Assembly (NCBI RefSeq): GCF_000014005.1
Contig: NC_008009.1
Coordinates: 496,001 to 560,000, forward strand
DNA from: Candidatus Koribacter versatilis Ellin345
GTDB taxonomy: Bacteria; Acidobacteriota; Terriglobia; Terriglobales; Acidobacteriaceae
DNA: 64,000 nucleotides
Direction of reading: 5' to 3'
Every line of letters starts with the position of its first letter. Positions within the stretch are counted from its first letter, which is position 1. Below, in pieces: positions 14,373 to 49,030 of the stretch. A model generated the notes under the pieces. That model saw only the letters and a program-made list of their open reading frames with translations, did not search any database and had not been told where the DNA came from. A program made the translations under genes and the position numbers.

Positions 14373-15593
14373 CTATTTGGAGCTGCTTGATGCGGGGCGG
14401 GCGAACGCGTCAGCAGGATCGAACCAGCATTGAGCTAGAAAACTGGGATCGGTCAATGTACCGGCGATCCACTGACGAAGCATAGGGGTCGTGGCTGCTG
14501 CCATCCCGCCTTCCGCAGCATCGAAGACGACCACCACACCGTCCACGCCCGTCGCGTTCGCTTGCTTCTTGAATACCGACTCCGCGTAGCTCAACCGTGC
14601 CTTCTGTGTGGACTTCCCATTCGGTTGCACCCAGATGATCTTCACGTTCTTGCCACGCAATGGCGCCCAATCACCGGGGAAGGTGGAAGTCTCTTCTTTG
14701 GTCAGGCGAAATTCTTCTCCGGCCGTGGATGCAGCGGTTTGCGCGGCTTTCGTTCCGATTTGCTCGACTTGTGCGGAGCGGATCCAGCCGCGATTGAGCC
14801 CGGAAATTTGAACGTGCGTCCACTCGCCTTCGGTCTTCAAATATTGAAACTCGTCTTCGGCATCGGCATACATCACAACGCGCGCGGCATCGGTTGGCGT
14901 CGCCACGATCGGCGTGTGCGGTGCCTTCACCGCCACGAGATCGCTCGGATGCTGCTGCGCTGCGATGACCTCGTTGAGGCTCTTCTCCTCCTGGACCAAG
15001 CGCTGGTAGCGCGGGTTCTGTTCAGGTGGAACCAGCGGTCCAGCAGGCGCTGCATAGGCTCTAAAGCTCGGTGGTGCGCTCGACAACGTGGGTGCTGGCG
15101 TCACCGATGGCCCCGCGTCCACCACCATCGGCGCCGTCCCCATTAACTTCGGTGAAACCAGCGGCGTGCGGGAAGCCGCGATGTCCGCCGCGTGCTGCGA
15201 TAAACGGGCGCGCAGCCGGTCGAACAGGTCAGTCTCGAGTCGTCCATTGGACGGCAGTTCGCGATAGCCCGACTTCGTTGCGTCCTTGTCTTCGTACCAG
15301 GCGCTGATCTTCGCGTTGACGCTGACCGTTACCTCGGACTCCGACGCTTGTTGAAGGTTGATCGCATATTGGTACGACGGGCGCTGGAACCCCTTCAAAG
15401 GCGCGTCAATCGAGCCTACGAAGCCTTCGACAAAGGGCAACCGGCCGGGCTGATAAGCACTGAGATCTTTCAGCGCCTGCTCGATGTCACCTTTCGGCGC
15501 ATGAAAGGTCTGGCGCAAGGCCTCGGTTTCCTGCGCGAAGGAAATTGCACAGAGAACGAAAAGCAGCGCGAATTGTGCGAGGGCACGCTTCAC
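14373..15593 (-). CDS. Secreted protein with SH3-like domain, unknown function
   Basis: GTG 15593 overlaps the stop of the upstream gene in a GTGA (4 bp), with GGAG about 10 bases before it, so translation is coupled; the frame continues further upstream but those codons belong to the neighbour. The 406-residue product begins with a signal peptide (VKRALAQFALLFVLCAISFA). Residues about 55-150 form a domain rich in short strands. A low-complexity Pro/Ala linker follows, then a coil (PRYQRLVQEEKSLNEVIAAQ) and an SH3-like module (VVMYADAEDEFQYLKTEGEW, THVQISGLNRGWIRSAQVE). The C-terminal about 110 residues end with a Ser tail. SH3-like modules in secreted proteins often bind cell wall. No enzyme motif seen. 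Confidence 0.6.
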   Translation of the reverse strand: MKRALAQFALLFVLCAISFAQETEALRQTFHAPKGDIEQALKDLSAYQPGRLPFVEGFVGSIDAPLKGFQRPSYQYAINLQQASESEVTVSVNAKISAWYEDKDATKSGYRELPSNGRLETDLFDRLRARLSQHAADIAASRTPLVSPKLMGTAPMVVDAGPSVTPAPTLSSAPPSFRAYAAPAGPLVPPEQNPRYQRLVQEEKSLNEVIAAQQHPSDLVAVKAPHTPIVATPTDAARVVMYADAEDEFQYLKTEGEWTHVQISGLNRGWIRSAQVEQIGTKAAQTAASTAGEEFRLTKEETSTFPGDWAPLRGKNVKIIWVQPNGKSTQKARLSYAESVFKKQANATGVDGVVVVFDAAEGGMAAATTPMLRQWIAGTLTDPSFLAQCWFDPADAFARPASSSSK

Positions 15594-16489
15594 GGCAGGT
15601 TCTCCACTTCGGCGTGATAGACCCACCCGCGATGTCCATCGGCGGTTTGCACGCCATACCAAAACGGCGTAACGATGAGCACCACGACATCCGTGTACGG
15701 CGATAACGATTGCAGACTGGCAGCGCCCTTGTAAGGTGCGGACTTCAGCTGCGTTCCCGACGCCTTCACCCGCAGTTCCGCTTTGCGCCGCAATTGCACG
15801 ACTCGTTGTTCGAGATCGATGGGTGCAGCCGCCGCAGCCTTGGCGGCTTCCTGGCGCGCGGCGAGGTCGAGTTCGGCTTGCTTTTCATTGCGCTCACGCG
15901 CGATCCGCTCGGCCTCCATGCGGTCCGTTTCATGGCGTGCCATTATCTGTTCGACCCGCTGCCGAATCTCGCCGAATTCTGCCGCCTCCACCGATCCATC
16001 GGACTCGTGAACGTGTTTCGATGAGTTCTCGATGAATACAGCATCGATGCGGACGTTGGTGTTCTTTTCGTCGAACCTGCTGACCACGTAGCGCACGGTA
16101 ATAGTGCCCATATCGGCGGTATTCTTGAAGTTGGTTGGCGCGAGCACTCCTTCGGCGATCTTGTAGATCACTGTTCCGGCGGGAGCCGCGTCACCAAACG
16201 CCTTCGAAGATTCCGCACGGCGAGCGCCCATCAAGTTCTTTTCGCGCTGATACGACTGCGTGCCGTAAATCACGGTGTCGCCCGAAACCTGCTGCACTGC
16301 GTCAATCACATCTTTGAGCGGAGCGTTGACCAGCACCTGGAGCGCATTCGGCGATTCGTGGATATCTTTCCGCGTACCGGCCACCAGATGCGGCGCGGTA
16401 AAGCAGGAAAGCACGAACATGGCGAGCACGATGTGCGTAACGCGACGTACGTGGAGCGAACGGTAGACCGGGAGATGAGACAAGGGCAT
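15590..16489 (-). CDS. Membrane-anchored or secreted protein with coiled coil and SH3-like domain
   Basis: I place the start at ATG 16489 because TTGACA (16535-16540, minus) and TACGAAT (16510-16516) form a plausible promoter inside the longer open frame that reaches 16540. The 299-residue product has an N-terminal hydrophobic segment (VTHIVLAMFVLSCFTAP) and a small domain starting ALQVLVNAPLKDVIDAVQQV that recalls secretin/STN-type repeats. A charged coiled coil follows (ARHETDRMEAERIARERNEK), then a C-terminal SH3-like module (YTDVVVLIVTPFWYGVQTAD, GWVYHAEVE). It is translationally coupled to the following SH3-like protein, so the two probably act together at the envelope. The function is not known. 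Confidence 0.6.
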   Translation of the reverse strand: MPLSHLPVYRSLHVRRVTHIVLAMFVLSCFTAPHLVAGTRKDIHESPNALQVLVNAPLKDVIDAVQQVSGDTVIYGTQSYQREKNLMGARRAESSKAFGDAAPAGTVIYKIAEGVLAPTNFKNTADMGTITVRYVVSRFDEKNTNVRIDAVFIENSSKHVHESDGSVEAAEFGEIRQRVEQIMARHETDRMEAERIARERNEKQAELDLAARQEAAKAAAAAPIDLEQRVVQLRRKAELRVKASGTQLKSAPYKGAASLQSLSPYTDVVVLIVTPFWYGVQTADGHRGWVYHAEVENLP

Positions 16490-16965
16490 GAGGGCGTCGA
16501 CTTGCTGCCATTCGTACTCCCGGACGCGAGGCACTGTCAAGCGTCCACAAACGTGCGGCGCGCAAGCGTTCGAAAATGGCGACTAGATGACGACGTGTTC
16601 ATCTAAGTCTTTTGTTTGCACACAATTTTACTAATTTAGGCACGAAAGAGCTATTTGCTTTTGCTTTCGCGAGGGCGTAGTATCCGCAACCGTTTGGGGA
16701 ATTCACAACCAAACTATTGCTGTCAAGGATTAGGCGCCAATTATTCGGGGAACATTCCCGTTTAGGTAAAGCCAGATGGCATGAGCGTTCGCTCGACGCT
16801 CGCCAGAAAGAATGAGCGCTTCGTGCTAATCGTTTTGCGAAGCTACGTTCCAAGGTTCGCTCGCAGATCGGACGAAAAAGCCCGATGAAACCTTGGGATA
16901 GAGACGTACAGGGCCCCTAGCTTCTTGCAATTTTTGAAGAGACCAAACTCGTCAGAGGAGCTGCT
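16490..16965. promoter_or_regulatory. Divergent intergenic region: minus promoter near 16510-16540; dyad at 16748-16759
   Basis: The 476-bp space separates the SH3-like pair from the respiratory operon. TTGACA-18-TACGAAT reads on the minus strand (16540-16510). GGGAA-CA-TTCCC at 16748-16759 is a short dyad that could be a regulator site for the cytochrome operon. An 84-codon minus frame (16599-16853) has no recognisable features and I do not call it a gene. No sigma-54 or FNR consensus with correct spacing was found. The plus gene has GAGGAG a few bases before its ATG at 16966. Confidence 0.35.
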
Positions 16966-18345
16966 ATGCGGATAGATGTGATCGGGCGTTTTCAGCGCCT
17001 GCGCTCGGCAATCGCTTCCTACCTCGCCATGGGGATGCTGCTCGGCATCTTCCTTGCGGCAAGCAGCCAATCCAGTTTTGCGATCGCGGCTTTCGCACGC
17101 AAGTACGGATTGCCGTGTTCCGCGTGTCACGATGCATGGCCCAAACTCAATAATTTCGGCCAGACGTTCAAGGACAACGGATACCAGTTGATGAACGACC
17201 GCGACGCTCCGATCTGGCAGAATCCGAGCTACTGGCCGGTGGCGTTCCGTATCACACCGAATTGGGACCTCGAGAACACTGGCAGGGTGGCAACCGACCA
17301 GGCGCCCAACGGACAGTCGGTCACAACTCACGGTTTCAATCTAAGCGGCCTCGACATTCTCACCGCGGGCACGCTCAACAAAGACATCTCCTTCCTGCTA
17401 GTCCCTTCTGCCGATGAAACGGGCGCCTTCCATTTCGAATCAGCTTGGGTACGGTTCGACAACCTGTTCCACAGCTCGTGGGCGAATTTGAAGGTCGGCA
17501 AGTTCGAGCTCGACAACCTGATCTCGGAAAAACGAGGTCTCACCCTCTCAGCGAACGGCGGCTCTTACCAGCTTTACCACTTCCTGCCGTTTGGCGACTC
17601 GAACCCCTACCAGTTCGGTATCGGCGACAACCAGATGGGAATCGAGTTCGCCGGCCACTCGAAGAACGACTACACGCGTTTCTCGGCCTCGCTGCTCAGC
17701 AGTAATGACGGCAACGTGGACGTTCCTTACGGCAGCACGTATGACGGGAGCTTCACCTTCAGCACCGCCTTCAACGCGGGCAGTTTAGGTCTACAGCGAA
17801 TTGGGGCGCAGGCTTACATCGGGCAGGCCCCGACGTACTACCTCACATCCGGTGGCGGCGATATCCCAGGCACCGGCAAGGGCAATCACGGCTTCAGCCG
17901 TGAAGCGGTTTTTGCCCTGCTCTACTTCGGCAAATTCGACGTTACGCCGCTGTTCGGGCACGGTAGCGAGAGCGCATACCTGGCGAATTACGTTTCGACC
18001 GGCGGCATGCCCCCGGTATTGCCAGCGGGCTCGCGCGATCCATCGTGGAACAACTTCATGGTGGAATCTCACTACCTGTTCAACCCGCAGTTCATCATGA
18101 CGTATCGCTACGACGCCATCTACATGACGCAGCAGGCGAGCACCGCGTATCCGGATGATGCCGGCAACACCACGGCGAATACGATTGCTGCCCGCTATTA
18201 CCCGTTCATGCATAGCCGCGCGGGTTTCGCGCTGCATGGCGAGTTCTCGCACCTGAACCAGAAACACGTTTTCTCAACCACAACCGGAACGTTGCAGGAC
18301 GTTAGCTACTACAGCGTCTTTGGCGGCATGGACTTCATTTTCTAA
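16966..18345 (+). CDS. Outer-membrane monohaem cytochrome-porin fusion, Cyc2-like
   Basis: The 459-residue product has a signal sequence (hydrophobic about 24-42), then one haem site C51-S-A-C54-H55 in the context FARKYGLPCSACH, followed by PKLNNFGQTFKDNGY. That context (FAR, CxxCH, P.LN.FG..F...GY) is what I know from the N-terminal plug of Cyc2 iron oxidases. The remaining about 390 residues alternate polar and hydrophobic with many aromatic residues and end in MDFIF, as outer-membrane beta-barrels do. Length fits Cyc2 (about 450-490). Such fusions move electrons across the outer membrane. It leads an operon with a dihaem cytochrome, a cupredoxin and cytochrome oxidase. The barrel is inferred from pattern only; Fe(II) as donor is a hypothesis. 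Confidence 0.7.
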   Translation: MRIDVIGRFQRLRSAIASYLAMGMLLGIFLAASSQSSFAIAAFARKYGLPCSACHDAWPKLNNFGQTFKDNGYQLMNDRDAPIWQNPSYWPVAFRITPNWDLENTGRVATDQAPNGQSVTTHGFNLSGLDILTAGTLNKDISFLLVPSADETGAFHFESAWVRFDNLFHSSWANLKVGKFELDNLISEKRGLTLSANGGSYQLYHFLPFGDSNPYQFGIGDNQMGIEFAGHSKNDYTRFSASLLSSNDGNVDVPYGSTYDGSFTFSTAFNAGSLGLQRIGAQAYIGQAPTYYLTSGGGDIPGTGKGNHGFSREAVFALLYFGKFDVTPLFGHGSESAYLANYVSTGGMPPVLPAGSRDPSWNNFMVESHYLFNPQFIMTYRYDAIYMTQQASTAYPDDAGNTTANTIAARYYPFMHSRAGFALHGEFSHLNQKHVFSTTTGTLQDVSYYSVFGGMDFIF

Positions 18346-18351
18346 ACGGTG

Positions 18352-19302
18352 ATGACTATGAATGCGATCACGAAAACTCTGGTTTCCATGAGCTTCAGCC
18401 TCGCCATAGCGATCGCCGTCCCGGCGCTCGCACAGGAACCTCCGGGAAGTGGCATGCCGCAGCCGATTCCGCAAACGCCAGCGACGCATGACTTCACGTC
18501 CCACATCGGCAAAGTGACGGGCCATGCCGACCACGGCAAGCAGGACTACCGGCGCTGGTGTGTGGGATGCCATGGACCATATGGCGATGGCAACGGAGAA
18601 AATGCCCCGTGGATTGATCCCAAGCCTCGCGACTTCACAGCCGCGACCTTCAAGTGCCGATCAACGCCGACCGGTACCCTTCCTACCGACGACGATCTCT
18701 TCAACGCGATCACCCGCGGCTTCAATACCAGTAACATGCCGCAATGGCGTCCGCTGACACCACAAACGCGCGCCGACTTGATTGCGTACGTGAAGACCTT
18801 CTCGCCGCGGTGGAAGTCAGAAAAGCCGGGCACACCGATCACGATCACGCCTGAAACGCCGGTGACGATTGACAGCATCGCGCGCGGCAAAGCGTTGTTC
18901 GTCAAGTTGGAATGCTGGAAGTGCCACGGACCTCTCGGCCGGAGCGACGGCCCCTCGGCAGCAACCCTTACCGATAGCAAAGACCAGCCGATCAAGCCCT
19001 ACAACTTCTCGACCGGCGGACGCTTGAAGTGTGGCGAGGCCAACGCCGATATCTATCGCGACTTCATGACCGGATTGGACGGGACGCCAATGCCGTCGTT
19101 TGCAGACAACGTGAAGCCGGAGGAAGCGTGGGACCTAGTGCACTTCCTGCGTACACTCCAAACCACTCGTCCGAGCAAAGAGAATGAAGTATTGAAGGCG
19201 GCAGGCGGTAAGATTCCTGACGTTCCGCCTCCTGCCGCTCCGGCGCAGGAGAACAACCAAGCTCCGCAGCAGGAGCAGAAGTCTCCGAGCAGCGGGAAAT
19301 AA
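18352..19302 (+). CDS. Periplasmic dihaem cytochrome c
   Basis: Signal peptide at the N-terminus (SMSFSLAIAIAVPALA). Two class-I cytochrome c domains follow: C70-V-G-C73-H74 with axial-Met candidate in NTSNMPQWRPL, and C188-W-K-C191-H192 with candidate Met in GTPMPSFADNV. Each domain ends with the helix typical of the fold (ADLIAYVKTFS and AWDLVHFLRTLQ). The C-terminal tail is Pro/Gln-rich. The gene follows the cytochrome-porin by only 6 bp, so the protein would be the periplasmic shuttle between outer membrane and oxidase, like Cyc1 in the rus operon of Acidithiobacillus. GTG 18349 and ATG 18358 are alternative starts. Confidence 0.85.
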   Translation: MTMNAITKTLVSMSFSLAIAIAVPALAQEPPGSGMPQPIPQTPATHDFTSHIGKVTGHADHGKQDYRRWCVGCHGPYGDGNGENAPWIDPKPRDFTAATFKCRSTPTGTLPTDDDLFNAITRGFNTSNMPQWRPLTPQTRADLIAYVKTFSPRWKSEKPGTPITITPETPVTIDSIARGKALFVKLECWKCHGPLGRSDGPSAATLTDSKDQPIKPYNFSTGGRLKCGEANADIYRDFMTGLDGTPMPSFADNVKPEEAWDLVHFLRTLQTTRPSKENEVLKAAGGKIPDVPPPAAPAQENNQAPQQEQKSPSSGK

Positions 19303-19330
19303 ATTGAGTTTTCTATCCCAGGAGAAACGG

Positions 19331-20044
19331 ATGCGAACGAAACAAGTCTGTACCGCAGCAGCGCTCGCACTGCTGATTGCACCAGCAAGCGTGTGGGCAG
19401 GAACAATCAGTGGCAAGGTGACGGTAGATGGCCCGGTTCCGAAGCAAAAGGTTATTGATATGTCGAAGGAGCCGGCGTGCGCGAAGGACTATCCAGCGAG
19501 TGATCCGCCGAAAACGGAAACGGCCACTGTAGGTGCGGGCAATTCCTTGTCTGACGTCGTGGTGTATATCTCCGCGGGCGCCAACGACGAGGGCACTGTA
19601 CCTCCACAAGCGGTAACGCTGGACCAGCACGGCTGCCGATACATCAAACACGTGACCGCTTTACATGTGAATCAGGACATGAAGGTCACGAACAGCGATC
19701 CGACCTCGCACAACATCCATCCGCTGGCGAAAACCAACCGCGAATGGAACAAGTCGCAGCCACCCGGATCGCCTGCGCTCGATGCGAAGTTCGACCAGGC
19801 GGAATTCATTCCGGTCAAATGCAACATCCATCCGTGGATGCACGGTTACATCGTAGTGCTGAAGACGAACCACTTCGGTGTAACAGGTGCTGACGGCGGG
19901 TTCTCCCTGAAGGACCTGCCACCGGGCAAGTACACGGTGACAGCGTGGCAGGAGACGCTCGGGAGTTCGCAGCAAGACGTGACGATCGGTGGCGCCAACG
20001 AAACGAAGACGATCAACTTCGTATTCAAAGGCAAGGCGTACTAA
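19331..20044 (+). CDS. Periplasmic cupredoxin (amicyanin-type site) with carboxypeptidase-regulatory domain
   Basis: ATG 19331 is chosen for its AGGAG 8-9 bases upstream and the signal peptide that follows (MRTKQVCTAAALALLIAPAS). A beta-sandwich holds a type-1 copper ligand set: H127 in TSHNIHP, then C164-N-I-H167-P-W-M170, which reproduces the C-x2-H-P-x-M loop of amicyanin. After it, GADGGFSLKDLPPGKYTVTA is a carboxypeptidase-regulatory-like segment. In this position the protein would carry electrons between the c-type cytochromes and the CuA centre, a part played by rusticyanin in iron oxidisers. It is 28 bp after the dihaem cytochrome gene. Copper binding is inferred from ligands; partner choice is inference. 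Confidence 0.75.
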   Translation: MRTKQVCTAAALALLIAPASVWAGTISGKVTVDGPVPKQKVIDMSKEPACAKDYPASDPPKTETATVGAGNSLSDVVVYISAGANDEGTVPPQAVTLDQHGCRYIKHVTALHVNQDMKVTNSDPTSHNIHPLAKTNREWNKSQPPGSPALDAKFDQAEFIPVKCNIHPWMHGYIVVLKTNHFGVTGADGGFSLKDLPPGKYTVTAWQETLGSSQQDVTIGGANETKTINFVFKGKAY

Positions 20045-20052
20045 AACCAGTC

Positions 20053-20080
20053 AGGGCCTGTAGCGGGACGCTACGGCCCT
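20053..20080 (+). terminator. Strong hairpin after cupredoxin gene, possible attenuator or mRNA processing site
   Basis: AGGGCC-T-GTAGCG (20053-20065) pairs with CGCTACGGCCCT (20069-20080): twelve pairs with one bulged T and a GGA loop. No T-run follows, only CCTTATCTATTTA, so it is more likely a partial terminator or an RNA-stability element setting cytochrome/cupredoxin levels above oxidase levels. Confidence 0.5.
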
Positions 20081-20088
20081 CCTTATCT

Positions 20089-20111
20089 ATTTACTACTCG
20101 AAGTAGTAAAT
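20089..20111. promoter_or_regulatory. BlaI/CopY-like operator palindrome before coxB
   Basis: ATTTACTACT-CGA-AGTAGTAAAT is a perfect inverted repeat with 10-bp arms. Its TACTAC...GTAGTA core resembles operators of the BlaI/MecI/CopY repressor family. It ends 12 bp before the coxB start codon. No BlaI-type regulator gene is in this window, so the binder is unknown. Confidence 0.55.
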
Positions 20112-20123
20112 GAAGGACGACGC

Positions 20124-20927
20124 ATGGGCAAACTCTTCGCAGTGGTGCTGGTGTTGATCGCAATCGGATCGGCGATCCCGATCGTCATGCACTGGTACCC
20201 GATGGCGCAGGACATCTCCACGCACGGTCATCTGATTGACGATCAGATGGGCGAGACGATGGCGGAAGCGGGTATTGCCTTCCTTGCCGCGCAGTTCGTG
20301 CTCGCGTTTTTCGTCTTTCGATACTCCGACCGCAAAGATCCTGGCAAAATCAGGACTTTCCCGGGCGGCGCCCGGACGATGGTAGTCGCTGCCGTACTGC
20401 TTGTCGGGTCAGAAGTGCTGGCGCTGGGAATCTTCGGACAGCGCGCGTGGGCGGGGCAGTACTTCACACCTCCCGGTGCAGATGCCATGACGATCCAAAC
20501 GCAGGCGGGCCAATTTGCTTTTTACTTCCGCTATCCCGGCGCCGACGGCAAGCTTGGCCAGCAGCATCCGGACAAGATTGATGAAGGCAACCAGAACTTT
20601 TTTGGTCTCGATCCGGCGAATGATGTTGAGTCACGCGACGATGTCGTAACTGCCGAGCTCGGCATTCCTGCGAATCGAGAGATCCGACTCCTGATGCACT
20701 CCAAGGATGTGGGACATTCGTTCTACGTACGCGAACTGCGGGTGCAGCAGGACTTCGTTCCAGGACTCGACCTGATGGTGCACTTCACTGCGACGAAGCC
20801 GGGGAGATACGAAATTGTGTGCACGCAGCTCTGCGGATTGGGCCACTACAACATGAAGGCCTATCTGAATGTGATGACGCAGGAAGATTTCGACGCTTGG
20901 ATGAAGCAGAAGACGTCGGAGCAATAG
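20124..20927 (+). CDS. coxB: Cytochrome c oxidase subunit II
   Basis: The 267-residue protein has two N-terminal transmembrane helices (residues about 4-24 and 50-66) with a third hydrophobic stretch near 88-108, then a periplasmic cupredoxin domain. The CuA site is complete: H198 in VGHSFYVREL and C233-TQL-C237-GLG-H241-YN-M244. There is no C-terminal CxxCH, so this is an aa3-type and not a caa3-type subunit, and it depends on a separate electron donor such as the cytochrome or cupredoxin encoded upstream. GAAGGA precedes the ATG. It starts the cox part of the operon, after a hairpin and a palindrome that may uncouple it from the three upstream genes. Confidence 0.92.
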   Translation: MGKLFAVVLVLIAIGSAIPIVMHWYPMAQDISTHGHLIDDQMGETMAEAGIAFLAAQFVLAFFVFRYSDRKDPGKIRTFPGGARTMVVAAVLLVGSEVLALGIFGQRAWAGQYFTPPGADAMTIQTQAGQFAFYFRYPGADGKLGQQHPDKIDEGNQNFFGLDPANDVESRDDVVTAELGIPANREIRLLMHSKDVGHSFYVRELRVQQDFVPGLDLMVHFTATKPGRYEIVCTQLCGLGHYNMKAYLNVMTQEDFDAWMKQKTSEQ

Positions 20928-20938
20928 GGAATCGAAAC

Positions 20939-20955
20939 GCCGCGTAACGCGCGGC
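20939..20955 (+). other. Short hairpin between coxB and coxA
   Basis: GCCGCG (20939-20944) pairs with CGCGGC (20950-20955) around a TAACG loop. No T-run follows. It may be an RNA-stability element. Confidence 0.35.
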
Positions 20956-20990
20956 TCGCTCAACATGACGAGAAAAAGCGGGGAGAGCAA

Positions 20991-22778
20991 ATGAGCGGAT
21001 TGGGTTCAGCAGAAGCATCTCACCAGCACGTGGCACCAACTGGGTTCATTCGGAAGTATGTATTCAGCCTTGATCACAAGGTGATTGGCCTCCAGTATTA
21101 CGGGTTGGCAGTGGTGGCGGTGTTCATCGGGATGGTTCTTTCCTGGCTGATGCGCATTCACCTCGTGTGGCCGAATTCGCCTATTCCGGGCCTGCACCTG
21201 CTAAGCAAGAACGGCGCGCCCGGCGACGTGATGACGCCAGAATATTACCTCTCTCTGCTCACCATGCACGGAACACTGATGGTCTTCTTTGTGCTGACCA
21301 ATGCTCCGTTTGCCGCGTTCGGTAACTACTTCCTGCCGATCCAGATCGGCGCGGAGGACATGGCCTTCCCGCGCTTCAACATGATGTCGTTCTGGACGAC
21401 CTTTGCAGCGTTCTGCGTGTTGATTGCAGCGTTCTTCATCCCCGATGGGCCTCCGATTTCCGGCTGGACTGCCTACGCAACGCTCAGCGCGGTGGGAGGC
21501 GATGCGGGACCGGGGATGGCTTATGGGCAAACGCTCTGGGGAATTTCGATTGCGATCTTCTGTATCGCGTCGCTATTAGGTTCGCTGAACTTCATCGCGA
21601 CCACTCTCGACCTTCGTACCAAAGGCATGAGCTTGATGCGGATGCCAATCTGCACGTGGGCATGGTTTATCACGTCGTGCATCGCGTTGCTCGCGTTCGC
21701 AGTGCTGCTCCCGGCTTGCATTCTCCTCTGTCTGGATCGGGTTGCGGGAACCAGCTTCTTCATCCCTTCGGGACTGGTTTTCAACGATCACGTCATTCCC
21801 CATGGCGGTGGTTCGGCCCTGTTGTGGCAGCATCTCTTCTGGTTCTTCGGACATCCCGAGGTATACATTGCGATCCTGCCGGCGATGGGCATCGTGTCGC
21901 ACATTTTGATCAATAGCATGCGGCGGCCGCTGCTGAGTCACAGAGTCGTTATCGGCAGTATGATATCGATCGGATTCCTGAGCTACGTAGTTTGGGGACA
22001 CCATATGTTCGTCAGCGGAATGAACCCGCTGTCTTCGCTGGTGTTCTCGTTCCCGACGCTGATTATTACGATTCCCGCGACAGTGCTGACGCTTATCTGG
22101 CTCGGGAGTCTGTATGGCTCGCGGCTTCGGATTAACAGCGCATCGCTGTTTGCACTCGGGTTTATTTCGATGTTCGTAAGCGGCGGCGTGAGCGGGTTTT
22201 TCCTGGCTCAGCCTTCCATTGACATCTATCTGCACGCGACCTATTTCGTGGTCGGGCACTTCCACTTGGTAATGGGCGTAGCGGCGATCTTCGGTGTGTT
22301 CGCGGGAACATATTTCTGGTTCCCGAAAATGACCGGGCACATGATGAACGAGACGCTTGGGAAGATCCACTTCTGGGGAACGTTCATCGGGGCCTATTGC
22401 ATTTTCATGCCGTTCCACTATCTCGGCATGGTCGGCAATGTGCGGCGGTATTCGTCGTTTGTGGACGACTTCCTACAGCCCTATCTTCCCCTGCACAAAT
22501 TCATCACCTTCGCGGCCCTGACCACTGGGGCCTTCCAGATCCTTTTCCTACTCAACTTGCTTTACAGCCGCTTCAAGGGGCCGAAGGCGCCGGTGAATCC
22601 GTGGGAATGCACGTCTCTCGAGTGGACGGTTCCATCACCACCGCCGTTCGACAACTTCGGCGGAGTGCACCCGGTGGTCTACCACGATCCGTACCAGTAC
22701 GGTATAGAGGGCTCGACCGGAGACTACGTGATGCAGTCTTCACCCGAGACGATCGCGGTGGAACGCGACGAGAAGTAA
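20991..22778 (+). CDS. coxA: Cytochrome c oxidase subunit I (haem-copper oxidase, type A)
   Basis: The 595-residue polytopic protein begins in the usual way (SLDHKVIGLQYYGLAVVAVF) and carries the low-spin haem region (TMHGTLMVFFVLTN). It also has the CuB/tyrosine motif H288-PEVY in WFFGHPEVYIAILPAMG, and the late double histidine in LHATYFVVGHFHLVMG that binds high- and low-spin haem. The glutamate of HPEVY's preceding helix pattern and the Tyr of HPEVY place it in type A oxidases. It reduces O2 to water and pumps protons. GGGGAGAG lies just before the ATG. It is followed after 10 bp by a subunit III gene. Confidence 0.95.
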   Translation: MSGLGSAEASHQHVAPTGFIRKYVFSLDHKVIGLQYYGLAVVAVFIGMVLSWLMRIHLVWPNSPIPGLHLLSKNGAPGDVMTPEYYLSLLTMHGTLMVFFVLTNAPFAAFGNYFLPIQIGAEDMAFPRFNMMSFWTTFAAFCVLIAAFFIPDGPPISGWTAYATLSAVGGDAGPGMAYGQTLWGISIAIFCIASLLGSLNFIATTLDLRTKGMSLMRMPICTWAWFITSCIALLAFAVLLPACILLCLDRVAGTSFFIPSGLVFNDHVIPHGGGSALLWQHLFWFFGHPEVYIAILPAMGIVSHILINSMRRPLLSHRVVIGSMISIGFLSYVVWGHHMFVSGMNPLSSLVFSFPTLIITIPATVLTLIWLGSLYGSRLRINSASLFALGFISMFVSGGVSGFFLAQPSIDIYLHATYFVVGHFHLVMGVAAIFGVFAGTYFWFPKMTGHMMNETLGKIHFWGTFIGAYCIFMPFHYLGMVGNVRRYSSFVDDFLQPYLPLHKFITFAALTTGAFQILFLLNLLYSRFKGPKAPVNPWECTSLEWTVPSPPPFDNFGGVHPVVYHDPYQYGIEGSTGDYVMQSSPETIAVERDEK

Positions 22779-22788
22779 AGGGGACCCG

Positions 22789-23478
22789 ATGAGTGCGTTG
22801 AATGAACCACTGAATCTAGCGCAAGCCGTCGAAGTTGAACGCCAAGAGCGGCGTAAGACGAGCGGCGGGTCGACAGTACCGCCGAGTTCTACGAGCGGAC
22901 GCTTGCCGTCTATAGCGGATCCAGCGGGCGAATCGGTACGTACGGGCGTGTGGGTCGGTCTGGCGACGATCGCGATGATGTTTGCGGCGTTCACCAGCGC
23001 CGTCGTCGTGCGCAAGGGCGCTTCCAATGATTGGACCCACATCGTACTGCCGAACATCCTCCTGCTGAATTCGGCAGTGCTGGTGGCAAGCAGCATCACA
23101 TTGGAGATTGCACGCAAGAAGGTCAAGGCGTATGCGAAGGGAACCGCTCCATCGCAGAGTGTGCCGCTTGCGTGGCTCGGCTCCACACTGGCGCTCGGCT
23201 TGATTTTTGTAGTCGGACAGTTCGTAGCGTGGTCGCAGTTGAAAGCCCAGGGCGTATATCTCGCCACTAGCCCGAATGCTTCGTTCTTCTATGTGTTGAC
23301 GGTGATTCATGCCATCCACGTCGCCGGCGGCTTAGGAGGTTTGACGCGGGTGATCTTGAAGACGAGCGGATCGGTATTCACGCTTCGGCGCAGCACACTC
23401 GACGGCACTGCCTACTACTGGCACTTCATGGGTGCGCTTTGGATTTACGTGGTCTCGCTTCTCTATTTGAAGTTCTAG
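22789..23478 (+). CDS. Cytochrome c oxidase subunit III-like protein
   Basis: A 229-residue membrane protein. A hydrophilic N-terminus of about 45 residues is followed by five likely membrane segments (WVGLATIAMMFAAFTSAVVV; NILLLNSAVLVASSITLEI; WLGSTLALGLIFVVGQFVAW; SFFYVLTVIHAIHVAGGLGG; YYWHFMGALWIYVVSLLYL). The HAIHVAGG and YYWHFMGALWIYV motifs are those of subunit III, which stabilises the proton-pumping core. AAGGGG precedes the ATG. The next gene encodes a second subunit III-like protein. Confidence 0.85.
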   Translation: MSALNEPLNLAQAVEVERQERRKTSGGSTVPPSSTSGRLPSIADPAGESVRTGVWVGLATIAMMFAAFTSAVVVRKGASNDWTHIVLPNILLLNSAVLVASSITLEIARKKVKAYAKGTAPSQSVPLAWLGSTLALGLIFVVGQFVAWSQLKAQGVYLATSPNASFFYVLTVIHAIHVAGGLGGLTRVILKTSGSVFTLRRSTLDGTAYYWHFMGALWIYVVSLLYLKF

Positions 23479-23503
23479 TACAGCCACGATTCGGGGAGGA
23501 ATT

Positions 23504-24130
23504 GTGAGTCAAGCTGATATCGCACAGGTTGGGCATGGACCGGCCTATGAGGCGCCACCATTTGCGATTCCGTCGAAGAAATTGGTGATGTGGCTGTTCA
23601 TCATCTCGGATGCCGTGACCTTTGGCGCCATGTTGTATGGATATGGGTATCTGCGGAACGCGTCTTCGGATTGGCCGACACCGTTCAAGTTCTCGCCGAG
23701 CATCGTGAACGTAATGATCATGACTTTCGTGCTCATTACCAGCAGTCTGACCATGCTGATCGGCGTACGAAAGGCGCAGTCTGGCGATAGGTTTGGCGCG
23801 ATCAACTGGACGTTCATCACTGTACTTCTTGGACTCGTTTTCGCGGGGCTACATATTCGCGAGTGGATCGGATTGATTCACGAAGGTGTCACACTCTCTG
23901 CGAATCCATGGGGTTCGAAGCAGTTTGGTGCATTGTTCTTTTCGATCACCGGATTACACCTAACGCACGTGTTCGGCGGAGTGATTGCTTTGACTGTCGT
24001 CGCCCTCGGCTTTAAGCGAGGACGATATAAAGCCGCCGACATCGAGATCTGGGGCCTGTACTGGCACTTCGTGGACTTGGTGTGGATGTTCGTAGTGCCG
24101 CTCGTGTACCTGTTGAACCTCGAGAAATAG
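23504..24130 (+). CDS. coxC: Cytochrome c oxidase subunit III, second copy
   Basis: GTG start at 23504 with GGGGAGGAA just upstream. The 208-residue product has five likely helices and the subunit III hallmarks GLHLTHVFGG and WGLYWHFVDLVWMFVVPLVY. The N-terminal PSKKLVMWLFIISDAVTFGA is close to canonical CoxC/CyoC sequences, more so than the gene before it. Two adjacent subunit-III-type genes with similar topology suggest duplication and division of roles, or a two-protein subunit III. It lies 25 bp after the first and 12 bp before the subunit IV gene. Confidence 0.88.
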   Translation: MSQADIAQVGHGPAYEAPPFAIPSKKLVMWLFIISDAVTFGAMLYGYGYLRNASSDWPTPFKFSPSIVNVMIMTFVLITSSLTMLIGVRKAQSGDRFGAINWTFITVLLGLVFAGLHIREWIGLIHEGVTLSANPWGSKQFGALFFSITGLHLTHVFGGVIALTVVALGFKRGRYKAADIEIWGLYWHFVDLVWMFVVPLVYLLNLEK

Positions 24131-24142
24131 GGAGAAACGACA

Positions 24143-24451
24143 ATGGAACAGACTGCGCGTCAGGAGAGCCTCAAAACCGACATCCTGATCTATGTCGTTA
24201 TTTTGATCATCGCGGGACTGCAGATCCTGCTCGCCTATCGGCCGGGAACAATCGGAAAGCATGTATTGGAGATGCTGGCGCTCGCAATCGTTCAAGCCGG
24301 GCTTGGGATCATGTTTTTCATGCATCTCTTTCAGGAGAAGCGTTTACTGATGATCGCGCTCATCCCCGTGACGATTTTCGTTCTTTTGATGATGAACATG
24401 TTCTGGAGCGACAGCTTCCGGCTGATCCACATGAAGCCGTGGGCGAACTGA
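24143..24451 (+). CDS. coxD: Cytochrome c oxidase subunit IV, prokaryotic type
   Basis: The 102-residue protein has three hydrophobic segments (ILIYVVILIIAGLQILLAY; LEMLALAIVQAGLGIMFFMH; LLMIALIPVTIFVLLMMNMF) and the FMHLFQEKRLL stretch typical of the prokaryotic subunit IV family. This small subunit helps assemble the CuB centre and is last among the core cox genes. AGGGAGAAAC precedes the ATG. It is 7 bp from the next small gene. Confidence 0.85.
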   Translation: MEQTARQESLKTDILIYVVILIIAGLQILLAYRPGTIGKHVLEMLALAIVQAGLGIMFFMHLFQEKRLLMIALIPVTIFVLLMMNMFWSDSFRLIHMKPWAN

Positions 24452-24458
24452 GCCGACG

Positions 24459-24746
24459 ATGAAAAATTTTGCTCGAGTGTTGCTATTTCAAGCAGTCCTG
24501 CTCGCTGCTACAGGACTGTTTGGCCAGGGTTGTGCCCTTTGCTATACGCAGGCCGCAGCTTCAGGCCCGAAAATGATTAGTGCATTGAAAAGCGGAATCA
24601 TCGTGCTCATGGTTCCGCCATTCTTTATCTGCCTTCTCATTACCAATCTGAGCTACAAGAAGCGAAATCAGTTTCGTTCCTCACGCCTGTCCGGAGCGGC
24701 AGGATCCTCAGCGATCGAATCTGAGAATGCCGACCTCGGCTGGTAA
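24459..24746 (+). CDS. Small membrane protein with GCALCYTQAAASG motif, unknown
   Basis: A 95-residue protein with an N-terminal signal or membrane helix (VLLFQAVLLAATGLFG), then GCALCYTQAAASG, then a second helix (GIIVLMVPPFFICLLITNLS) and a basic/Ser tail. The Cys-x-x-Cys pair just outside the membrane could bind copper or act in thiol chemistry, which would fit oxidase assembly, but nothing proves this. It starts 7 bp after coxD, so it is very probably the last gene of the operon. Confidence 0.7.
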   Translation: MKNFARVLLFQAVLLAATGLFGQGCALCYTQAAASGPKMISALKSGIIVLMVPPFFICLLITNLSYKKRNQFRSSRLSGAAGSSAIESENADLGW

Positions 24747-24760
24747 GCCACCCGACTCCG

Positions 24761-25468
24761 TCACTTGGAAGCGCTTGCGGACGATGTCAGCACGTAAGTT
24801 GTCATCCTATCGACTTCCACATTGAATTTCGCCGCTGAGAGTGTGATGCGGTTGTTTGAATCGTAGCTTTCAACGACGCCTTTCATCATCACCCGATGCT
24901 TGGAAATCTGTGAGGATGGCGAGGAAGCTTGCGGTCCGGAATCGCGGTCAGAATCGCGTCCCGGAAATTTCTCTTGCGATACCGGATTATTTGGATCGGG
25001 GTATGCGCCGCCTCCATTCCACTTTCCTGGGCTATTAGCCGCGTCGGGCGGCTCAAAGGAGAGGTCCTGAGGACGGGTCGACGCCATGGGATAGATCCAT
25101 GCGCAAAGGTCAACTTCGAGCGGAGTTGATTTGTCGCGCCATTGCAGCGAATGCATCCGGACCGCAAGGTGAGAAGGGGCGTCGCCGTTACGGGCGACCG
25201 ACTCCGTCACTTCTCCCGAGAAGATCGCGTTGCGAGGGTAGACAAATCCATTTACCAGGGTTGCGACGACGAGTTTCGCCAGGACCTTGGTTCCGACCGG
25301 AGTTTTGCCGGCCTGAATTTTCTGCTGCATGACAACTGGATATTCCTGGACCGGCGCTCGCACCGCAGACGATGCCGTTGTCGAGGATTGCGCGATGGCG
25401 CCGCAGGGAAAAAGCAGGAGCAGAGAAAACAACCTGAGCGACGAAAAAATCTGAGGACTGCGCAGCAT
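24761..25468 (-). CDS. Secreted protein of unknown function
   Basis: ATG 25468 is chosen for the strong GGGAGGTGGAG before it and for the signal peptide that follows (hydrophobic LRLFSLLLLFPCGAIA); the frame itself extends further upstream. The 235-residue product has a beta-rich middle (PVGTKVLAKLVVATLVNGFV, FSGEVTESVARNGDAP, LQWRDKSTPLEVDLCAW). These resemble the barrel-like domains of secreted or conjugation-type TrbI/VirB10-like proteins, but the match is too loose to use. A Pro/Asp-rich linker and a C-terminal domain (VMMKGVVESYDSNNRITLSA) follow. It faces the cox operon tail to tail with 14 bp between. Confidence 0.6.
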   Translation of the reverse strand: MLRSPQIFSSLRLFSLLLLFPCGAIAQSSTTASSAVRAPVQEYPVVMQQKIQAGKTPVGTKVLAKLVVATLVNGFVYPRNAIFSGEVTESVARNGDAPSHLAVRMHSLQWRDKSTPLEVDLCAWIYPMASTRPQDLSFEPPDAANSPGKWNGGGAYPDPNNPVSQEKFPGRDSDRDSGPQASSPSSQISKHRVMMKGVVESYDSNNRITLSAAKFNVEVDRMTTYVLTSSASASK

Positions 25469-25764
25469 GCTCCACCTCCCGTGTGCGCTCACCGTGGGCC
25501 CCACTCCGAACCGCAATATACGCCCTTCTGAATCGGGCTGCTCCCCCTTGACGGGTTAGGGGTCTCGAAAAATACTCGCGAAGCATGGTTGCTATCTCCG
25601 GGTAAGACGCTAAAATGCGCGGCACGGCAAATTGCCGTCGACGTACACGACGCGGGTTCAAACTTACGCTACCTCGATTTTTAGAGAAATTCCGAGTGCC
25701 AGCACTTTATGATGCTGTGAAATCAAAAGAAATTTCAAGCGAGTCGCGTGCGGGGTGACGAGCA
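25469..25764. promoter_or_regulatory. Divergent gap upstream of LacI gene with possible promoter
   Basis: TTGACG (25548-25553) and AATACT (25571-25576) are separated by 17 bp and read toward the LacI-family gene, leaving a leader of about 180 bases. The rest shows no gene. GGGTTCAAAC near 25652 looks like a tRNA T-loop but has no matching stem. Confidence 0.3.
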
Positions 25765-44174: not shown

Positions 44175-45611
44175 TCATTTTCGCTGAAGAGCGGAAATGC
44201 GCTCGGCGATGCCAAGCTTCTGAAGAATTTCCGGAGATGCCTCGTCCATCGCCAGGGGTTCGTGACAGCTGTTGCAATCCTGCGGAATGGTTTTGCCTGA
44301 ACTTGAAGTGTGCGAGCCATCGTGACAGCGGAAGCAGCCGGGGGACTCAGTGTGGCCGAGATTGTTCGGATAGGTTCCCCATGTAACTCCAAGCTCCGGA
44401 AAAACGTTGCGGTTGTAAATCGCGAGGACCGCTTTCCCGGCACGATCGACTTCTGCCCCACGCTGGCTGTAAACGCTGGGATAGTTTTGCTGATAGTAGG
44501 CGTTTAATTGGGAAGGAATCTTCTCCGACGCCTCTGCCTGGCTCGTGTAAGTCGCCTGCAGCAATTGCGCGCTCTCCTTCTTGACATAAGGCAGGGTCAC
44601 GGCAATCTCTCCGAGCGCGAGTGCTTTGTCCAGTCCAGGCTCGGGCATTTCGAACGTGTGAGTCGGACGGTTGTGGCAATCCACGCACTGCATCTCGATC
44701 GTCGCCGTGCCATCCGGCGCCGCCTTCTGGCTGTCGGATGCGACGAACTCTTCTTTTAGGCCGGAAGACTCATTCTCATACTGTACCCGTGTAATCGTCT
44801 GTCTCTTAGGATCGGATGCAGCAAACCGGATGTGAATTCCGGGGCCGACATGTGCGCCGTGAATGCCCTTATATTTGTCCCCCCCCACCATCATTAGGAG
44901 GACGGTCTGCGTCCTTGTATTGGTTTCGTCCGGCGCATATTTCGTCAGAACTCGTAGATTCACGCCTGAGAATTTCTCCGGCCAATGGCAGTGTTCGCAT
45001 GTCTCCCGCGCAGGCACGAGGCGGTTGGTTTCGATTGCGGAAGGAATCGGCTTGGGGCTGGATTTTAGAATTGTCTCTACGAGCTGGCGCGTGCCCGCCG
45101 CTTTACTGCTGACCCAGCCCGAAGCGCCGGGAGCAACGTGACACCCGACACATTCCACCCTGGAGTGGGGCGAGTTCTGGTATGCCGCGTACTCCGGCGC
45201 CATTACGTGGCACGTCCCCCCGCAGAATTGAGGTGTCTCCATGTGGCTCACGGCGCGATAGGAAACCTGTGTGCCTATTAGGATGTTCAGGACTGTCGTC
45301 ACGCCCACGACGATGGCGATGCGGCGCAGTGCGTTCTTCCGATCGAACCCACCTGACGAAAAACCGTGACGGATCCGGCGTTTTGCCAGAAAGAGCCCGA
45401 TTGGGGTGAGGACGAGCCCCCCGAAAAACACCACGGGAAGAAGAACGAACGCAACCAGTCCCGCATACGGATTATCCACATGCCCGCGCAATTGAACTGG
45501 CAGGATGAATATCCACGTGAGCACTGCGGTGATAACGAGCACGACCCCGGTCACGCTCAGCCAGTGCTGCGAAATCAAAAACCACGTTGGTCGCTGATTC
45601 GGTTCAGGCAC
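44175..45611 (-). CDS. Membrane-bound hexahaem NapC/NirT-like cytochrome c
   Basis: GTG start at 45611. The 478-residue protein has three hydrophobic segments at the N-terminus (about 17-37, 49-75, 97-113), then a periplasmic domain with six haem sites: the unusual CGGTCH (CX3CH) followed by VM, then CVGCH, CEHCH, CVDCH, CFRCH and CNSCH. NapC/NirT proteins take electrons from quinol and hand them to periplasmic partners. The extra membrane helices and C-terminal pair of haems make it longer than NapC. It is divergent from the formate dehydrogenase operon, sharing a 287-bp promoter region, so the two may work on the same quinone pool. No terminal reductase is next to it, so the direction of electron flow is not determined. 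Confidence 0.85.
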   Translation of the reverse strand: MPEPNQRPTWFLISQHWLSVTGVVLVITAVLTWIFILPVQLRGHVDNPYAGLVAFVLLPVVFFGGLVLTPIGLFLAKRRIRHGFSSGGFDRKNALRRIAIVVGVTTVLNILIGTQVSYRAVSHMETPQFCGGTCHVMAPEYAAYQNSPHSRVECVGCHVAPGASGWVSSKAAGTRQLVETILKSSPKPIPSAIETNRLVPARETCEHCHWPEKFSGVNLRVLTKYAPDETNTRTQTVLLMMVGGDKYKGIHGAHVGPGIHIRFAASDPKRQTITRVQYENESSGLKEEFVASDSQKAAPDGTATIEMQCVDCHNRPTHTFEMPEPGLDKALALGEIAVTLPYVKKESAQLLQATYTSQAEASEKIPSQLNAYYQQNYPSVYSQRGAEVDRAGKAVLAIYNRNVFPELGVTWGTYPNNLGHTESPGCFRCHDGSHTSSSGKTIPQDCNSCHEPLAMDEASPEILQKLGIAERISALQRK

Positions 45612-45898: not shown

Positions 45899-48800
45899 AT
45901 GGCCGCGTCCGAAACGCCCAAGCACGACGATGTCAACGTCCCGCAAGATCGCGTTCAGACAGCTCTCAGCCGTCGCGATTGGCTGCGGCTCACGATTGGA
46001 GCAAGCGCCGGTCTCGCGCTCGGCTCACTGGTCGACGTGAAGGCTGTGCGTGCCGCGAATGAGAGTCTAAAACTCTCGAACGTCCGCGAATTTACAACCT
46101 CCTGCAACTTCTGTTCGTGCGGATGCGGTATGGTCGCGACCGTGCGCGACAACAAGCTCATCACTCTCGAGGGCGATTACGACCACGTCGTAAACGAGGG
46201 GTCATTGTGCGTGAAGGGGATGTCTATGTTTCCCACGCACGCGTCTCCGCAGCGCAATCAAGTGCCCCGCTATCGAGCTCCCGGGAGCGATCACTGGGAA
46301 GACATTACGTGGGAGGATGCGGTTGAGCGCATCTCGCAGAAAATCCGCAAGACTCGCGACACCACTTGGATCGCAAACGAGAAGGCAGGCGACACCGAAG
46401 TCCCAGTGAATCGTACCGACGCCATCGCCTTCCTAGGCGGCGCCCAAAATACCAACGAAGAGTGCTACCTCTTCCAAAAGTTCGCTCGACTGCTCGGAAC
46501 GGCCTACGTGGAACACCAGGCCAGACTTTGACACAGCCCCACCGTCCCCGGTCTGGGGGCATCATTCGGTCGCGGCGCTATGACGAACCACTGGGCCGAC
46601 ATGCAGCATTGCAAGGCGATCCTGGTGGAAGGCAGCAACGCAGCCGAAAACCACGTCATGGCCATGAAGTGGATCCGTAAAGCGCAGGAAAACGGCGCCA
46701 TCATTATCCACGTGGACCCGCGGTTCACACGAACCTCCGCTGGAGCCGATATTTTCGCCCGCATTCGGCCGGGGGCAGATGCAGCGTTCTTGAACGCGAT
46801 GATTAACCACATCCTGGAGAACAAACTCTACGATCAGGATTATGTGGAGACACACACCAATGCTTTGATGATCGGGAACGCCGACTTCGACTTCAAAGAC
46901 GGCCTGTTCAGCGGATACGACGAAGAAGGTCACAAGTACAAAACGGACACCTGGGGCTATCAACTGGATGGTTCCGGGAAACCACGTCACGCGACAAGCC
47001 TCGACGATCCCCATTGTGTGTTCTCGACGCTGCGCAAGTTCTTCGCGCGTTACACGCTCGAAGTCGGCGAGCGCATGTCCGGCATTCCCGCGGCACAGAT
47101 CAAGCTGATTGCCGAGACCATGGCAAAGCACCGCCCTGGGACGATTCTCTATGCCCTTGGCATGACGCAGCACACGACTGCTGTCCAAGGCATCCGCGCC
47201 TTCACCATCTTCCAACTTCTTCTCGGAAATATTGGGAAGCCGGGCGGCGGCGTGAATGCGCTCCGCGGCGAGCCAAACGTTCAGGGCGCCTGCGACATGG
47301 CGGTTCTGAACAACTACATGCCGGGCTATCTCAACTACCCGGTGCATACCGAGCCGACACTCGCGGCATGGACCGTGAACAACGGCAGCTTGCGGCGTAA
47401 ATATCTGGTCAATACGTTGAAGGCGTTCTACGGCGACGCAGCCACCGCAGAGAACGAGTTCTGCTACGCGTGGCTGCCGAAGCGAAATAGTGCAAAGGAT
47501 TACAGCGCCTACGGAATCTTCGAGAGTGCCCTCGCCGGCAACATGAAGCTGCTGTGGATCGCGGGTCAAAATCCCGCAGTGAGCTCTCCCAATCTCAAGC
47601 TGGTTTTTGAAGCGCTTGGAAATCTGGAAACGCTGGTTGTGCAGGAATTGTGGGAGACCGAAACCGCCGCGTTCTGGAAACGCCCCGGAGTTGATCCGAA
47701 GTCCGTGAAAACGGAAGTATTCCTGCTTCCGGCCGCGTTCTTCATGGAGAAGCAGGGCACCATTACCAACTCGGGCGCCATGGTGCAGTGGAGATACAAA
47801 GCCGTTCCACCTCCCGGACAGGCCAAGCCTGATGGCGAAATCGTGGATATCGTCTATCGCCGAGTGCGTGATCTGCTGAAGGATTCGACCGATCCCAAAG
47901 ACCAAATCGTGAAGCGTGCGTTCTGGACGTACACCACTCCCGAGGATGTCTTGCGGGAGATCAACGGCCGCGCCCTGCACGATATTCCAGGCACCGACCT
48001 GAAAGCCGGTACCCTCGCGAGCCGCATCGCCGACCTGAAAGCCGATGGTTCAACCTCTTCTGGCTGCTGGATCTACGCCGGGGTCTTTTCAAAAGGCGAG
48101 AACCTCTCGAAGCGGCGTGACCACCGCACCGACCCCGGCAAACTTGGCCTCTATCCGAACTTCGGATGGACCTGGCCGAACAACATGCGGGTGCTTTACA
48201 ACCGTGCTTCCTGCGATCGCCATGGTAAGCCCTATCCCGGTTCGAAACCGATCGTATGGTGGGACGAAGAAGCGAAGCGCTGGACTGGCTATGACGTTCC
48301 CGATGTGCCGGTAATCACTGACGGTCCCAACACGCCGAATGGACAGCGAGCGTTCCATATGAATGCCGAGGGCGTAGCGCGCCTCTTCGCTGCCGTTTAC
48401 AAGGATCCAGAACCTGCCAGCGATGATCTGTGGCGCGACGCCAGTTACGTCCCCAAGGACGGTCCGCTGCCGGAAATGTACGAACCCGTGGAGAGTCCGG
48501 TAGAGAACCCGATGCACCCGAAGGTGCGGAATAACCCCATGCTGAAGTATCCGCGTGTCGGTAGCATCCATCAACCCATCGGCACCGCGAAAGATTTTCC
48601 TTACGTCCTTATGACCTCAACCGTAGCCGAACATTGGTGCGGCGGCTCCACGACTCGCAACAATCCCTGGCTGAACGAGTTGATGCCGGAACCTGTTTGC
48701 GAGATCCCAGAGGTCCTAGGGTCGAAGCTTTCCGTTAAATCCGGTGACTGGGTGAAGGTCTCGTCGGCTCGAGGAGAAGTTGAAGTGAAGGCTGTCGTCA

Positions 48801-49030
48801 CACCGCGCATGCAGCCGCTCCAAATCGCGGGACAGCAAGTCATCATTGTCTGGATGCCCTACAACTGGGGCTTCCAGGGCCTCTCCACTGGCCCGAGTGT
48901 GAACCACCTCACAATCGACGCCGTGGATCCGGGGGCAGGTACGCAGGAGACGAAAGCGTGTCTCGTAAATGTCGTCAAGGTTCGTGACGCCAGCGCAAGG
49001 CGTTCCGATCCCAGAGGGAGGCGCGCATGA
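45899..49030 (+). CDS. fdnG: Selenocysteine-containing periplasmic formate dehydrogenase, catalytic alpha subunit
   Basis: One reading frame interrupted by a single TGA at 46529-46531, codon 211, which I read as selenocysteine. The flanking residues EHQARL-U-HSPTVPG...GRGAMTNHW match the active site of FdnG/FdoG enzymes. A hairpin with the GGTCT loop follows. The 1043-residue product has a Tat signal (SRRDWLRLTIGASAGLALG, R25-R26), a [4Fe-4S] site C69-x2-C72-x3-C76 with the fourth Cys in GSLCVKG, and the full molybdopterin oxidoreductase domains including the C-terminal dinucleotide-binding part. It oxidises formate to CO2 in the periplasm with Mo or W bis-MGD. Its stop overlaps the next start (ATGA at 49027). 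Confidence 0.93.
46529..46560 (+). promoter_or_regulatory. UGA codon and bacterial SECIS element
   Basis: After TGA 46529-46531 come 18 bases, then the loop GGTCT (46550-46554). It is closed by GTCCCC (46544-46549) with GGGGGC (46555-46560), five Watson-Crick pairs and one T-G. The GGUCU loop and its distance of 18 bases from the UGA match what I recall of the E. coli formate dehydrogenase SECIS. Confidence 0.85.

Follow-up and report, generated by a model that had tools for sequence, protein, structure and literature searches.

Does the genome of Candidatus Koribacter versatilis Ellin345 hold the genes for a respiratory chain that starts outside the cell and ends at O2? The question is raised by a run of nine genes (positions 16966–24746) in a stretch of 64,000 nucleotides from this single-contig genome of 5,650,368 bp (contig NC_008009.1, positions 496,001 to 560,000 of the forward strand; we call the whole stretch the window and give all coordinates within it). 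An earlier note, made from the sequence alone, had likened this operon to the rus iron-oxidation operon of Acidithiobacillus. The case that the operon encodes a self-contained respiratory branch, taking electrons from an external donor, most likely dissolved Fe(II), to O2 and bypassing the quinone pool, seems to us about evenly balanced. It draws on a predicted cytochrome-porin, on the metal ligands of the proteins that follow it, and on the recurrence of the gene order in other acidobacteria.

A conserved gene unit in acidobacteria

All nine open reading frames (ORFs) of the operon lie on the plus strand, separated in order by gaps of 3, 1, 79, 63, 10, 25, 12, and 7 bp. Pfam matches above the cut-offs comprise two cytochrome c domains in the dihaem protein, COX2, COX1, COX3 twice, and COX4_pro; the first and last proteins have no Pfam family. 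The ORFs and domains agree with the gene content given in the earlier note (a single-CxxCH protein, a dihaem cytochrome, a copper loop, and aa3 genes without a cytochrome domain). Its coxBACD set is also present and in order, with the amendment that there are two COX3-type genes instead of one.

One scan of a genome collection (84,980 species) returned 163 relatives, of which the best 80 were kept, all from metagenome-assembled genome records titled as acidobacteria. Because the kept loci are the closest half of the relatives, conservation may be overstated. The dihaem gene starts within 600 bp in 74 of the 76 loci that extend 1.2 kb or more downstream, the exceptions being L124, where it lies 2.6 kb on, and L104, which is without it. 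Where at least 7.5 kb is available downstream, 47 of 58 loci keep the order dihaem, copper protein, coxB, coxA, second COX3, coxD, small gene (the first COX3 was not required in this test). We reject a chance run of cytochrome genes, and regard the operon as more than that, because the order recurs in these 47 of 58 loci with room and a 16-strand barrel is predicted for the first protein. In another set of 399 Terriglobia genomes, drawn separately, 50 have the cytochrome-porin at E 1e-50; across the phylum, some match at E 0.01 is found in 82 of 297, many over the N-terminal part only.

Two divergent genes upstream (14373–16540) go with the operon as members of the same unit. Partner a (14373–15662, minus strand; 429 aa) has a weak SH3_3 match below the Pfam cut-off and partner b (15590–16540, minus strand; 316 aa) is without a Pfam family; homologues are found in 64 of the 80 loci for each. 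By its position, the 425 bp between the divergent transcription units (16541–16965) is a possible two-way promoter region. Of the 74 loci that extend far enough, 58 have partner b in divergent orientation no more than 3 kb upstream. There are 58 loci that reach 5 kb or more downstream and 2.5 kb or more upstream; among them partner b is present in every one of the 47 that have coxA and in 2 of the 11 that lack it (Fisher p 5e-9, with no correction for kinship). In the model of partner b, a mixed domain at the N-terminus is followed by a long helix and then by an SH3-like domain at the C-terminus. Foldseek gave weak matches, SH3 and START/Bet v1 type among others, and none at E 0.001; the N-terminal domain is START/Bet v1-like at best. 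We read the two partners as accessory factors of the operon oxidase.

Some loci depart from this arrangement. A rearranged unit is seen in L124 (L124:10001-20673), where a same-strand SH3-like pair separates the cytochrome-porin from the dihaem and cox genes. An open frame at L115:17195-18889, downstream of a cox-less cytochrome-porin locus, is 565 residues long and contains 22 CxxCH motifs. A second, broader cytochrome-porin family, with a small copper protein nearby and no cox set, is seen in L053 (L053:1691-10030), L044, L046, L047, L048, L049, L051, and L052; L048 has a short coxB-like match, and L053 has additionally an eight-CxxCH cytochrome and an iron–sulfur/flavin adenine dinucleotide oxidoreductase.

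The cytochrome-porin

The first gene (16966–18345, plus strand) encodes 459 aa with an N-terminal hydrophobic stretch (a signal peptide by eye), a C-terminal Phe, and a lone CxxCH at residue 51 within FARKYGLPCSACHDAWPKLNNFGQTFKDNGY. Its sequence gave no match in Pfam, NCBIfam, or PDB sequence searches. The AlphaFold2 model from a 58-row alignment (predicted local distance difference test, pLDDT, 81; predicted template modelling score, pTM, 0.77) has 16 strands between residues 92 and 458, and residues 34–64, including the haem motif, fall at pLDDT <50. Foldseek and VIA-align listed mostly porins for this model, among them PorB (Z 24.6), OprO (23.1), and OprP (22.9), with many rows tied.

In the description of Keffer et al. 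2021 (PMC8406198), Cyc2 is a fusion of a monohaem cytochrome with a porin of 16 strands and has OprO and OprP as structural homologues. Their defining motif is AXPXFAR[Q/K][T/Y] plus PXL, and their screen dropped sequences without PXFAR[Q/K][T/Y]. All 58 of our aligned rows have a single CxxCH with PxL downstream of it and invariant H205 and H231. The full upstream motif is found in 53 of them (L135, one of those that miss it, is a row cut at its start) and the screened part in 55. Cyc2 proteins are 365 residues or longer and include a 16-strand porin; the window protein reaches this size, its barrel being a model. Profile comparison (hhalign) matched the haem domain to six plasmid-encoded Pseudomonadota proteins, one of them from Acidithiobacillus ferrooxidans (probability 98.2, E 3.2e-14, 61 columns). 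We named this set Cyc2-like from motif and taxa; four of its six rows hold CxxCH, and two end just after the haem motif.

We call the first protein Cyc2-like, since its haem domain is homologous and its predicted build is the same, yet it misses one residue in the published screen. The earlier note had recognised a Cyc2 N-terminal pattern and proposed to check it by profile search and structure prediction. The pattern is upheld in the haem-domain homology, PxL, and CxxCH, and departs at one position, where A replaces P. The profile search links the haem domain to the six Cyc2-like proteins, whereas no sequence alignment was obtained between the porin parts. The anticipated 16-strand barrel is predicted. 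Closest homologues of another kind, unrelated soluble cytochromes, were not seen: no sequence relative was found in the PDB, and the match of the haem domain is to Cyc2-like proteins.

For phylogeny we used a quick tree search, with long branches flagged, on hand-picked loci (14 with cox and 10 without); L010 and L013 were left out because the motif pattern missed them. The window-type proteins form a supported clade in which rows with and without cox are mixed, and the Pseudomonadota set lies far off, across a branch of 2.51 changes per column (midpoint root). Presence of cox requires 6 changes on this tree, and as few were seen in 52 of 500 shuffles. To limit the size of two alignments, the loci for them were picked by no fixed rule: 57 of the 80 loci for A2, and 40 of the 64 loci with the partner gene for A4.

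The periplasmic carriers

The literature has cyc2 often adjoining a gene for a mono- or dihaem cytochrome (PMC10715153). Here the second gene (18349–19302, plus strand), in the position of Cyc1, encodes a dihaem cytochrome c of 317 aa, identified by Pfam and by conserved haem sites: both CxxCH motifs and M130 are kept in all 82 rows, and M248 is kept in 81 of 81. Its nearest PDB entry is 6h5l chain B (E 1.7e-53), with both haem domains aligned (residues 61–271). Among 20 PDB matches of the dihaem profile at E up to 10, no entry is named c4, although a missing match is no proof.

The third gene (19304–20044, plus strand), in the position of Cup, has a TTG start with an in-frame ATG downstream of it and encodes 246 aa, with a carboxypeptidase-regulatory-like domain at the C-terminus. 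By ligand motif we take it for a type 1 copper protein, because it has the loop CNIHPWM, conserved ligands (H136 and C173 in 77 of 77 rows, H176 and M179 in 76 of 76 ungapped rows), and, in a profile search, weak similarity to amicyanin (E 0.02). Neither rusticyanin nor the Cup of acidophiles is among the 24 PDB matches of its profile, the best of which hit the C-terminal domain; this shows no difference in fold. A rusticyanin search in plasmids led nowhere. The rows for metal sites (77 for the copper protein, 82 for the dihaem protein, and 61 for CoxB) also draw on loci L034-L038, and these sets, like that for CoxA, hold two contigs twice (L034 = L063, L036 = L105).

Two terminal oxidases in one genome

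The coxB gene (20124–20927, plus strand) encodes a CuA subunit II by Pfam, with neither a cytochrome c domain nor a CxxCH; the CuA ligands C233, C237, H241, and M244 are found in 60 of 60 rows and H198 in 61 of 61. The product of coxA (20991–22778, plus strand) is a family A subunit I that aligns over residues 10–556 with that of Rhodobacter sphaeroides (1m56; E 7.5e-104). Its D-channel residues and E286 are present and its K-channel lysine is absent. Across 51 operon-type rows, D132, N139, E286, and Y288 are invariant and H284 is found in 50 (with one X), and the K362 position holds V in 17, I in 15, L in 11, M in 7, and A in 1, with lysine in none. NCBIfam scores fall under the equivalog cut-offs for both CoxA (538 of 671 bits) and CoxB (111 of 148 bits). 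Pfam and NCBIfam identify two COX3-type subunits (22789–23478 and 23504–24130, both plus strand), and Pfam COX4_pro identifies coxD, subunit IV (24143–24451, plus strand). The last gene (24459–24746, plus strand), for a small membrane protein of no family, is present at the operon end in relatives.

Elsewhere the genome encodes another aa3 oxidase, of caa3 type, with K362 present and A in place of E286 (YSHPAVY). It adjoins a CtaC with CxxCH and ActB-like and ActC-like genes; the assignment of these Act-like genes to alternative complex III (ACIII), and of a neighbour to SCO, is partly by eye. The genome thus keeps an ACIII-like/aa3 chain plus, separately, the unit in the window. Cytochrome b of family PF00033 was not matched in the genome by a search that rings in 8 of 14 control genomes and did not extend to PF13631 or other cytochrome b models; a branch linked to bc1 is disfavoured on this ground.

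The carriers are seen beside an O2 reductase of another type in L037 (G278:C59), from a distant acidobacterium, where the copper protein, cytochrome-porin, and dihaem protein lie beside a COX1 gene and a FixO-cytochrome c fusion with EF-hand matches. This oxidase is of the cbb3 type, and the locus is a second association of the carrier trio with an O2 reductase.

Proposed function and alternatives

In the scheme that we infer, including its carrier order, direction of flow, and potential, the haem domain, at or in a 16-strand barrel that would lie in the outer membrane, would accept an electron from the outside donor. The dihaem cytochrome and the copper protein would ferry it across the periplasm to the CuA of CoxB, and CoxA (haem a) would reduce O2. 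We favour inward flow because a strong electron sink adjoins the carriers. No RuBisCO large subunit was found in the genome, and we therefore think of mixotrophic energy gain rather than autotrophy by that route. Fe(II) is our best guess for the donor because the Cyc2 members with tested function oxidise it (PMC8406198). A wider proposal, whose chances we place somewhat short of even, is that part of the Terriglobia, a class of bacteria from acid soils, has a second, convergent rus-type chain for an external donor (most likely Fe(II)), with an aa3 oxidase lacking the K-channel lysine and two START/SH3-like accessory proteins, and that these organisms are cryptic iron oxidisers.

Several points weigh against an Fe(II)-to-O2 branch. 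Ca. Koribacter versatilis is presumably a heterotroph, and the proposed branch is read here from sequences and models. The window protein reads AIAAFARKY and so fails the published screen by one residue, a change shared by its nearest relative, L056. Its porin part has no sequence match in the Cyc2-like set and resembles it in fold alone, the family as a whole is divergent, and we know of no functional test of the six proteins that compose it. The Cyc2 authors themselves consider function in divergent homologues uncertain (PMC8406198). Rusticyanin (TIGR03095) gave nothing in the genome at E 0.001, and the copper protein has no copper-protein match in Pfam or NCBIfam, its sub-cut-off matches being to regulatory domains and in Pfam only. 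In the remaining 11 of the 58 loci the dihaem gene is present, with the copper protein behind it in 8 (L075, L076, and L115 have that gene just upstream instead), and cox genes are absent. Finally, Cyc2 and a Cyc2B have been implicated in Fe(III) reduction by A. ferrooxidans (PMC8790237).

There is a modest chance that the wiring from outside to O2 is the same and the natural donor is something other than Fe(II), such as Mn(II), Cu(I), reduced humic substances, minerals, or other cells. The anatomy of the operon does not name its donor. Many of the loci come from records titled palsa, bog, or fen, settings in which reduced organic matter is plentiful, and additional functions of Cyc2 are allowed for by its authors (PMC8406198). 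Against such donors stand the oxidation of Fe(II) by tested Cyc2 members and the service of the rus operon, of the same order, in Fe(II) oxidation. Slightly less probable, and in our view unlikely, is an aa3 branch of the ordinary kind, in which electrons come from the quinone pool by way of ACIII and the dihaem cytochrome and the cytochrome-porin has some other task, such as redox gating of the pore or metal handling. The ACIII-like genes could indeed supply the operon oxidase as well, a general draw of Terriglobia genomes has the cytochrome-porin in 50 of 399, and the 11 of 58 loci that have carriers without cox indicate that these can do without the operon oxidase. However, the ACIII-like genes have a caa3-type oxidase of their own, the carrier trio also pairs with a cbb3 oxidase, and the cytochrome-porin gene lies 3 bp ahead of the dihaem gene in the window and within 600 bp of it in 74 of 76 loci.

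An outward chain appears improbable. At low O2 the cytochrome-porin would then be the exit by which electrons reach Fe(III) or some other external acceptor, and with O2 present the oxidase would serve the same carriers. The implication of Cyc2 and Cyc2B in Fe(III) reduction would suit it, as would the reduction of Fe(III) by cultured acidobacteria (PMC8790237), but the gene unit has an O2 reductase and no quinol-oxidising module.

Should the reading as an Fe(II)-to-O2 branch be true, a major soil phylum, in which our searches found no such operon reported, would gain lithotrophic iron oxidation by an operon dedicated to it, and overlooked organisms would take part in the iron cycle of peat, permafrost, and acid soil. 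Two lineages reaching the same gene order from different parts would then provide a test case for convergence. The oxidase without a K-channel lysine is a natural experiment on the proton route to the oxygen site, and the gene unit offers a concrete marker for metatranscriptomes. We did not find the operon described in the literature that we searched, where cyc2 reports in single acidobacterial metagenome-assembled genomes may exist, and the published Cyc2 tree of 1,593 sequences may already hold relatives of the cytochrome-porin.

Other features of the window

Downstream of the operon lies an ORF on the other strand (24764–25516) with no Pfam family, followed by a LacI-type regulator (read by eye). 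An Rfam search led nowhere. The window also encodes a formate dehydrogenase-N type alpha subunit (45899–49027) split by an in-frame TGA (...QARL*HSPTVPGLGASFGRGAM) that is probably a selenocysteine codon, and an NrfH-like cytochrome with five CxxCH (44178–45611).

Comparison with known systems

The first protein resembles the Cyc2 family in its N-terminal haem domain with a single CxxCH, preceded by FARKY and followed by PxL, in its predicted 16-strand porin, and in a length above 365 residues. It differs in the alanine of its motif, in a porin part without sequence similarity to the Pseudomonadota set that we used, and in the long branch between them. The dihaem protein may be set beside 6h5l, which we take to be a Kuenenia protein of a hydroxylamine-oxidoreductase-like complex; the nine operon genes include no partner of that type. 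In comparison to A1-type oxidases, represented by 1m56, CoxA keeps the D-channel residues and E286 and has K362 replaced; K-channel losses among archaeal family A oxidases have been discussed (PMC8239418). The same source reports two extra N-terminal membrane helices in the CoxA of iron oxidisers; with 25 residues ahead of its helix I motif, against 21 in the genome's other aa3, the window CoxA is without them.

In Acidithiobacillus, Acidiferrobacter, and Acidihalobacter, the rus operon serves Fe(II) oxidation and has a copper protein gene, cup, between cyc1 and coxB; the part of this account that deals with relatives of Cyc2, Cyc1, or Cox names no Acidobacteria (PMC10654088). The functional order of the two operons is the same: cytochrome-porin, small c-type cytochrome, copper protein, coxB, coxA, coxC, coxD. 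The rus-like layout put forward in the earlier note is borne out by these seven shared slots, and the match is closer than that note knew, because the rus operon itself has cup in this place. The parts differ: the window's operon has two COX3-type genes, no ctaAB at its end, and two divergent SH3-like partners; no rusticyanin was found; the copper protein is nearest, weakly, to amicyanin among PDB copper proteins; the dihaem protein is nearest to 6h5l; and CoxA is without the two extra helices. These differences, with the amicyanin match at E 0.02, support the independent assembly, around a cupredoxin of amicyanin and not rusticyanin type, that had been suggested from the sequence. Descent from the rus operon as a block is rejected on the missing rusticyanin, the different copper and dihaem proteins, and the lack of extra CoxA helices. 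The window fills the first seven slots of the rus operon by function and position, not by orthology, and its likeness to that operon is one of layout and work rather than of descent as a block.

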